Source: a bacterium
Lineage (GTDB): Bacteria; SZUA-182; DTGQ01
NCBI GenBank assembly: GCA_023512255.1
Contig: JAILZY010000100.1
Location: 1 to 12,119 of the forward strand
Length of the DNA: 12,119 nucleotides
Reading direction: 5' to 3'
The first letter of the stretch is position 1. Every line of letters starts with the position of its first letter. A program made the translations under genes and the position numbers. The notes below the pieces were generated by a model. That model made no database searches and was not told the DNA's origin. It was given only the letters and a program-made list of their open reading frames with translations. This document shows positions 2,771 to 12,086 of this stretch, piece by piece.

Positions 2771-3571
2771 ATGTTTCGGGATCAAAAAGTTGTGGTAGTC
2801 ATGCCAGCGTATAATGCAGCTAAAACCTTGGAGCAGACATATAGGGAAATCCCGTTTGATATTGTGGATAGTGTAGTTTTAGTGGATGATGCCAGTCAGG
2901 ACAATACCCTTGAAGTAGCCAGAAAGCTTGGCCTGAGCAATATAATCCGCCATCCGGTAAATCGAGGCTATGGTGGAAATCAAAAAACCTGCTACACTAC
3001 GGCTCTTTCTCTGGGAGCAGATATTGTCATTATGCTTCATCCTGACTACCAGTATACCCCTAAACTGATTCATGCTATGGCCTCACTCATCGGAGTTGGG
3101 CAGTACGACCTTATTCTGGCCTCCAGGATTTTAGGCGATGGTGCTCTTGAAGGGGGAATGCCTCTCTACAAGTATATAGGAAACCGATTCTTGACCTGTT
3201 TTGAAAATTATCTGCTCGGCAAGAAGCTGTCTGAATATCATACCGGATACCGTGCCTTTTCTCGTAAGGTGCTCGAAACCCTTCCTCTTGAGGAAAACTC
3301 CGATGACTTTATCTTTGATAATGAAATCCTGGCTCAGGCCATTTTTTTTGGTTTCAGAATCGGAGAGATTTCCTGCCCAACCCGCTATATTGCTGGAGAA
3401 TCCTCTTCAATCAGCCTGCGGCGTAGTATCACCTATGGGCTGGGTGTGCTGAAAACATCCATAAAGTTTCGGATGCAGAAGATGGGCTTGAAGCATTATC
3501 CGATCTTTTCTTCAAGAGGGAGGAGGCTGAATTTATCATCCGGCTCAGGCCGCGGTCAGGCTAGTGAGTAA
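2771..3571 (+). CDS. Family 2 glycosyltransferase, DPM1-like
   Basis: 266 residues with a GT-A fold: [14 protein letters not shown] at the N-terminus, the nucleotide-binding pair D39-D40 in VLVDDASQD, the RGYGGNQK motif common in polyprenyl-phosphate sugar synthases, and HPDYQY (D92) in the DXD position. There is no C-terminal membrane segment, so it is a soluble or peripheral enzyme rather than the ArnC/GtrB type with two TM helices. Likely role: transferring a sugar from a nucleotide donor to a lipid carrier or surface glycan; donor and acceptor cannot be read from the sequence. GGAGG at 2753-2757 lies 13 nt from the ATG, which is long. The last ~20 residues ([17 protein letters not shown]) are low-complexity and basic. 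A MITE-like element follows 22 bp after the stop. Confidence 0.88.
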
Positions 3572-3593
3572 AGGGGGTCAAGGTAAAAAACAA

Positions 3594-3685
3594 TCGCTCT
3601 TATTTATTAGCTACCATTGAGAGACATAACCCTAATAAGAGCTAAGAACCTTCGAGGGTTTATGGTGTCTGATATATAAGAGCGA
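3594..3685. mobile_element. MITE-like element, copy 1 (92 bp)
   Basis: Bounded by perfect 10-bp inverted repeats TCGCTCTTAT (3594-3603) and ATAAGAGCGA (3676-3685). Directly outside both ends lies the same hexamer AAACAA (3588-3593 and 3686-3691), a 6-bp target-site duplication. It has no coding capacity. Internal inverted pairs TTAGCT/AGCTAA (3608-3613, 3640-3645) and AACCCT/AGGGTT (3628-3633, 3655-3660) give it hairpin potential. A longer relative lies at 8924-9045. It sits just after the glycosyltransferase stop. Confidence 0.8.
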
Positions 3686-3757
3686 AAACAATAGTTGAAA
3701 GTGGGAGGTACAAGCGAAAAAAGCCTCTTTTTCAACCCGGAAAGTGGTAAAGAGAAA

Positions 3758-3784
3758 CTCCCCTCTATAAATGGGGAGCATCTG
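3758..3784 (+). repeat. Hairpin containing dispersed 14-bp motif, copy 2
   Basis: CTCCCC (3758-3763) can pair with GGGGAG (3773-3778) across a 9-nt loop. The right arm lies within ATGGGGAGCATCTG (3771-3784), a 13/14 match to the motif at 62-75 and (inverted) 12046-12059. It lies in the 5' leader of the pentapeptide-repeat gene. The remainder of 3692-3835 shows nothing recognisable except a ribosome site. Confidence 0.45.
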
Positions 3785-3835: not shown

Positions 3836-4786
3836 ATGGAAAAACATCTTGAGGGAGTTCATTGGCCAGGTCATAACCTAGCCTATGCTGATCTTACTCA
3901 AGCCTCGATGATTAGGGCCAATCTTGAGCGGGCCAATCTTGAGCGGGCTAACCTGTGGAGAGCAAACCTTGACTATGCCTATGCCCGTGAGGCATGTTTC
4001 AAACATGCTTCCTTGAGAGAGGCCCGAGGACAGAATATTAATCTTGAGCGTGCCTTTATGGAAGGAGCAGATCTGGCTTGGGCTTATCTGCCTGGATCTT
4101 TCCTCCATGCCGCCCATTTGGCCTGGGCTAACCTTGAGGGGGTTAATTTTCGCTCGGCTAACCTGACGCTTGCCAACCTTGCCCATGCCAAACTTATCAA
4201 TGCTGACCTTTGGGGAGCCAATCTGAGTCAGGCTAACCTTGAGGGAGCCGTACTAATCAACACCAGCCTGGAGAAAACCAATCTGCACGGCTGCAACCTG
4301 GCCTATGCCCAGCTGATTAACGTCAATCTGCGGGGCGCAAATCTCGGTCAGACAAGTTTCTACGGCGCTACTATTGATCAGGTAAATATGGACGAGGCCG
4401 CGCATATTCAGCAGGCGAATTTCGATCAGGCCACTTTTATTAATGGAAAGCTCTTACGTTTTATGAACTTTGCCAATGCCTCTTTTCAAAATCGAGACTT
4501 GCGCCAGGTAGATTTCCAGGGGGCAGATCTAGGCGGCGCCAACTTTGAGGGTGCCCAGCTGGATGGGGCCAATCTCAAAGATACCAATTTAATGTTCTGC
4601 AATTTTCAGGGAGCATCGATTCAAGGCACCCTGTTTGACTATGCCATTATGACTGGCGCTAATATCTCGCACATTGAGCAATTTCAGGGAGCTAGTTTTC
4701 GAGGGGTAAACTGGTGGGCGGCTAGTTGTCTTTCTCCTGAGGAGTTTAAAAATTATCTTAAGAAAAATTTTCCTGCTCGCTTCTAG
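3836..4786 (+). CDS. Pentapeptide-repeat protein
   Basis: 316 residues made almost entirely of A(D/N)LXX-type pentapeptides (ANLERANLERANLWRANL and similar), broken by looser stretches around residues 45-65 and 180-215. Such repeats form a right-handed quadrilateral beta-helix. The C-terminus (VNWWAASCLSPEEFKNYLKK) leaves the repeat pattern and is probably a helical cap. No signal peptide or membrane segment is visible, so a cytosolic location is likely. Some family members mimic DNA and protect gyrase (Qnr, MfpA), but nothing here singles out that role and the function is unknown. The ATG is preceded by GAGGAG (3821-3826). The leader carries a MITE and a hairpin; the 3' end is partly duplicated downstream. 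Confidence 0.92.
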   Translation: MEKHLEGVHWPGHNLAYADLTQASMIRANLERANLERANLWRANLDYAYAREACFKHASLREARGQNINLERAFMEGADLAWAYLPGSFLHAAHLAWANLEGVNFRSANLTLANLAHAKLINADLWGANLSQANLEGAVLINTSLEKTNLHGCNLAYAQLINVNLRGANLGQTSFYGATIDQVNMDEAAHIQQANFDQATFINGKLLRFMNFANASFQNRDLRQVDFQGADLGGANFEGAQLDGANLKDTNLMFCNFQGASIQGTLFDYAIMTGANISHIEQFQGASFRGVNWWAASCLSPEEFKNYLKKNFPARF

Positions 4787-4849
4787 GGAATGGAGCAGGT
4801 TTCACTTGTTCGAGTTTGGATACAAATTTCCCTGCTCGCCTATAGGGAA
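4765..4849 (+). repeat. Imperfect direct repeat: 3' end of pentapeptide gene duplicated
   Basis: The 26 bases at 4765-4790, which include the stop codon of the pentapeptide gene, recur at 4824-4849 with three mismatches (23/26). Shared core CCTGCTCGC, then AGGGAA. The second copy ends 5 nt before the TTG start of the next gene, so its AGGGAAG may serve as that gene's ribosome site. CCTGCTC (4772-4778) can also pair with GAGCAGG (4793-4799) to form a hairpin spanning the stop; it lacks a U-tract, so it is a poor terminator. Confidence 0.75.
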
Positions 4850-8840: not shown

Positions 8841-8923
8841 GAATAATAATCTCCACAACTCCCCCCTTCGTAGCTTTTAAGAAAAATTATCTGATAGAAA
8901 TAGAAAGGCATAATTAATTTAAT

Positions 8924-9045
8924 TCGCTCTTATGTCTCAAATTTATTAGCTACCATTAAGAGATATAACCCTCATAAGAGCTAAGCCCCTTCGAGTTTAT
9001 GGTTGTTCTGATATAGGGTTTATGGTGTCTGATATATAAGAGCGA
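8924..9045. mobile_element. MITE-like element, copy 2 (122 bp)
   Basis: Perfect terminal inverted repeats TCGCTCTTAT (8924-8933) and ATAAGAGCGA (9036-9045) continue imperfectly to about 16 bp. The same hexamer TTTAAT flanks both ends (8918-8923 and 9046-9051), consistent with a 6-bp target duplication. Relative to copy 1 the core is 48/53 identical and the last 29 bases are identical. Copy 2 additionally carries 9 nt (8934-8942) and 21 nt (8996-9016). It lies in the leader of the sigma-54 activator gene, about 80 bp from its ATG, and could affect that gene's expression. Confidence 0.85.
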
Positions 9046-9117
9046 TTTAATTATAAATTATAACATATCAAATTGGAAAATCAAATCTTTGGAAAAGAAA
9101 AAAACATTTTCTCAAAA

Positions 9118-12045: not shown

Positions 12046-12059
12046 CAGATGTTCCCCAT
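12046..12059 (-). repeat. Dispersed 14-bp motif, copy 3 (inverted)
   Basis: CAGATGTTCCCCAT, the exact reverse complement of 62-75. It lies 23 bp after the tilS stop. On this strand the match to copy 1 continues approximately into a following A-rich stretch. Confidence 0.5.
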
Positions 12060-12086
12060 GTTGAAAAAATAATGTTGAAAATATAA

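Follow-up and report, generated by a model that had tools for sequence, protein, structure and literature searches.

The short repeat found twice in the window (the whole 12,119-nucleotide stretch of DNA that was analyzed, which is contig 109, C109, of a 3.83-Mb assembly, G000, in 172 contigs) is almost certainly a non-autonomous miniature inverted-repeat transposable element (MITE), one of a family of roughly 100 copies in this genome. Elements of this class are short (< ~600 bp) and carry no transposase gene. The family described here is likewise short and devoid of a transposase gene, and it displays terminal inverted repeats, target duplications of a fixed length and empty sites, the latter paralogous in that they lie in other copies of a repeat into which the element has inserted. 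Coordinates of the features in the window are collected in Table 1.

Table 1. Features of the two MITE copies and of the repeat carrying copy 1, in window coordinates
Feature	Position	Strand	Remarks
MITE copy 1	3594..3685	+	92 bp, non-coding; exact ends
Left terminal inverted repeat TCGCTCTTATTTATTAGCTACCAT, copy 1	3594..3617	+	83% complementary to 3662-3685
Right terminal inverted repeat ATGGTGTCTGATATATAAGAGCGA, copy 1	3662..3685	+	83% complementary to 3594-3617
Target duplication AAACAA, left, copy 1	3588..3593	.	
Target duplication AAACAA, right, copy 1	3686..3691	.	
MITE-B copy, decayed, carrying copy 1	3580..3784	+	ends CAGATGTTCCCCA / TGGGGAACATCTG, 9-bp duplications
MITE copy 2	8924..9045	+	122 bp
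Target duplication TTTAAT, left, copy 2	8918..8923	.	
Target duplication TTTAAT, right, copy 2	9046..9051	.	

Copy 1 begins with an exact match to TCGCTCTTAT (3594-3603) and ends with an exact match to ATAAGAGCGA (3676-3685), and its end pattern arose by chance in none of 200 shuffles of the window. The earlier note on this DNA had placed AAACAA directly outside both termini, and both hexamers are indeed exact, so that 3588-3691 comprises the element together with its two duplications. That note also spoke of a 92-bp non-coding core, which is right as regards coding but not as regards the core: 92 bp is the length of the entire element, whose imperfect inverted repeats of ~24 bp (83% complementarity) enclose a centre of only 44 bp. 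The second, related copy with a different target duplication of its own was likewise confirmed, TTTAAT being present on both sides; in this copy the right end is partly duplicated internally and ~10 additional bases occur near the left end. Copy 1 is predicted to fold into a single long imperfect hairpin (z -4.3), which is attributable to the terminal inverted repeats since these would give such a fold. A long hairpin, together with the strong intergenic bias described below, would also suit a structured repeat that lies between genes and does not move (an RNA or terminator hairpin, or a REP/BIME-like sequence), serving a regulatory role and flanked by hexamers that match by coincidence; however, the inverted repeats suffice for the hairpin, an Rfam search of the window returned no family at threshold, and the duplications and empty sites presented in the following paragraphs make this explanation very improbable.

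Ends of the element occur 207 times in the assembly at up to 3 mismatches, as against none for a reversed control pattern, from which the figure of roughly 100 copies is derived; 93 exact ATATAAGAGCGA right ends are present, and BLAST yields at least 54 matches to the element (40 of 144 candidates scored). A total of 80 copies could be delimited in the 0.6 Mb of sequence read near known ends, with sizes of 47-189 bp (mainly 92 and ~115 bp) and none above 200 bp; the longer, ~115-bp form has part of the right end repeated (TTTATGGTTGTTCTGATATAGGG). Aligned copies are mostly only a few bases apart, and the automatic orientation is reversed in a few of them (e.g. C109:8924), which lowers the mean identity and leaves the duplication counts unaffected. 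Among 74 insertion sites reconstructed without the element, just 2 are spanned by an open reading frame of at least 150 aa, compared with 772 of 1000 random positions, and the intergenic location of most surviving copies may reflect target preference, selection, or both. Many of the 172 contigs end within the repeat, and the MITE therefore likely explains part of the fragmentation of the assembly.

Genome-wide duplication of the flanking hexamer, expected from the earlier note, is present. The 80 delimited copies, a set chosen using the duplication, include 70 with a perfect 6-bp duplication and 10 matching at five of six positions. In a control set of 38 copies chosen by their ends alone, regardless of duplication, 27 have perfect 6-bp duplications (2.6% in a control with flanks shuffled between copies) and 5 match at five of six positions (1.2% with shuffled flanks), frequencies far in excess of those expected if the hexamers flanking a static structured repeat were coincidental. 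A duplication is lacking in three of the 38, for which recombination between copies or decay is the probable reason. The duplication extends to 7 or 8 bp in none of the 38, and is longer than 6 bp in none of another set of 62 copies, in which 53 perfect duplications represent 45 different hexamers; the insertion sites have mostly unrelated flanks. The element nonetheless shows a preference for WA-N6-TW sites: the base immediately left of the duplication is A in 86% of cases and that immediately right is T in 86%, with A or T one base further out in 98%, in a profile that pools both strands and whose symmetry is therefore built in.

The most direct evidence comes from a second repeat family of ~155 bp, designated MITE-B, that has 28 matches in this assembly and none in a same-genus genome (G001), and that is flanked by 9-bp duplications, perfect by eye in three copies (C24:3748, C147 and C77) and matching at 8 of 9 positions in others. 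Copy 1 lies in a decayed MITE-B copy whose left terminus is missing next to the stop codon that closes the upstream open reading frame (2771-3571), and the flanks of copy 1 are found again around copies on C14, C24, C106, C147 and C107. Six MITE-B copies hold the element at the same position, three in each orientation, and AAACAA is present twice wherever the sequence can be read. Several full-length MITE-B copies run uninterrupted through AGGTAAAAAACAATAGTTGAAAGTGGG or close variants of it with the hexamer single (C156:24521 and C100:92, and with small variants C14:17722, C24:22463, C158:42065 and C134:12875), the AAACAA duplication being present at this site only where the element is inserted. 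These filled and empty sites, which constitute a clean, nested record of insertion, are direct proof that the element inserts. The earlier note had proposed a search for empty sites in related genomes; such sites occur in this genome itself, within other copies of the host repeat, and together with the genome-wide 6-bp duplications they bear out its claim that the element transposes as a unit. The empty sites with a single hexamer refute a non-mobile structured repeat as a full explanation, and the occurrence of both orientations at one host site is a further argument against it. Two additional stretches, at 54-75 and 12046-12067 near the two ends of the contig, resemble MITE-B ends.

The concentration of six copies at one MITE-B site raises the question of whether the ends of the element play no part in its spread, which would then be purely passive, through recombination or through carriage within MITE-B and other larger repeats. 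Composites of the element within MITE-B that have their own 9-bp duplications (C24, C147) are consistent with such passage, and some copies may have travelled as part of MITE-B; the six filled sites reflect either repeated insertion or the movement of some composites as one unit. As an account of the whole family, however, passive spread is contradicted by the diversity of duplicated hexamers and the mostly unrelated flanks, and even inside MITE-B the element differs in orientation and length, so that we regard it as extremely unlikely.

For an element that moves by its own ends, a transposase made elsewhere would bind TCGCTCTYATWTATYAGNCACCAT-like ends, excise or copy the element, and insert it at AT-rich WA-N6-TW sites by way of cuts staggered by 6 bp, the repair of which would create the hexamer duplication. 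Mobilization in trans is inferred, no transposase bearing the MITE ends having been found in the parts of the genome examined. The DDE_Tnp_1 genes at 3 loci of the present assembly and at 13 loci of three other genomes (G001-G003) are in no case bounded by MITE ends, and derivation from an IS4/IS5-type (DDE_Tnp_1) element was accordingly rejected for the loci examined. The sole MITE end beside a DDE_Tnp_1 gene (on C29) belongs to an ordinary 115-bp copy adjoining another IS remnant. That DDE_Tnp_1 remnant (L098, ~890-2190) is apparently bounded by CTCACTACCGGACA-type ends, and the 115-bp MITE copy lies just downstream of it. Pairs of ends more than 200 bp apart with a matching hexamer are absent from the 0.6 Mb of stretches read. 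The MITE probably stems from an insertion sequence by loss of the transposase gene, followed by multiplication of the short form, and this parent could be missing from the assembly because of its fragmentation into 172 contigs, many of them ending in the repeat. It is conceivable, if rather doubtful, that the ends, together with the preference for WA-N6-TW and the duplication of 6 bp, define an undescribed insertion-sequence family confined to this poorly sampled lineage, its autonomous member being either lost or located in unassembled DNA.

In the collections searched the element is unmatched except for a few relatives in one species of the same genus. This genome (G001) contains about ten such ends, and the 24-bp end recurs there with a few differences, joined to different cores. 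Its elements include one of ~126 bp (L110) with CTGTT common to both outer flanks, one of 180 bp (L102) and one of 399 bp (L111, flanks TTCTCG/TTCTTG); hexamer duplications matching at five of six positions are present among them, and for the relative at C71:688 a duplicated hexamer is not clearly discernible. The 399-bp element (1501-1899 of L111, on contig C13 of that genome) is non-coding, its core contains a further inverted repeat, and several of its copies stop at contig breaks. The remaining seven genomes of the class contain no end at 3 mismatches, and the plasmid, phage and viral-contig collections contain no match to the element. Across a wider set of 386 genomes, six 3-mismatch matches (compared with 4 for the reversed control pattern) were dismissed as chance; their second ends are unconvincing and most lie inside open reading frames. 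The same judgment applies to 20 exact bases in a member of the Latescibacterota (L100), which fall in a stretch that by eye is topoisomerase I-like and lack a second end, while matches in genome G007 (L103, L105) were set aside as lying within apparent coding sequence.

Elements of this kind are ordinary, well-known genomic parasites; the present case adds a MITE family of high copy number, which appears to have been active recently, in a sparsely sampled lineage whose class is represented by 9 genomes in the collection searched. Correia elements duplicate TA, compared with 6 bp in the present family. ERIC and Correia-type MITEs have other end sequences, but resemble the window MITE in being short, with inverted repeats and tens to hundreds of copies (PMC10969869). 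The Chunjie MITE of Geobacter uraniireducens is similarly non-coding and mostly intergenic, with tens of copies, conserved terminal inverted repeats, direct repeats and variation in copy size; at 178-235 bp, against 47-189 bp here, it is likened by description and not by sequence (PMC10969869). QMITE families of Coxiella burnetii are also numerous and variable in size, and the insertion of IS1111 into QMITE2 parallels the nesting of one mobile element within another (PMC10969869), although in the present case the guest is itself a MITE and the host repeat an apparent second MITE family.

Two other features of the window were noted. An open reading frame at 164-1120, which by eye resembles Rpn/PD-(D/E)XK-type genes, contains an in-frame 12-bp repeat encoding a QGLQQGIQ run, and a 26-bp direct repeat (4765-4790 and 4824-4849; 88% identity, 59 bp from start to start) is located at the end of a pentapeptide-repeat-like open reading frame.
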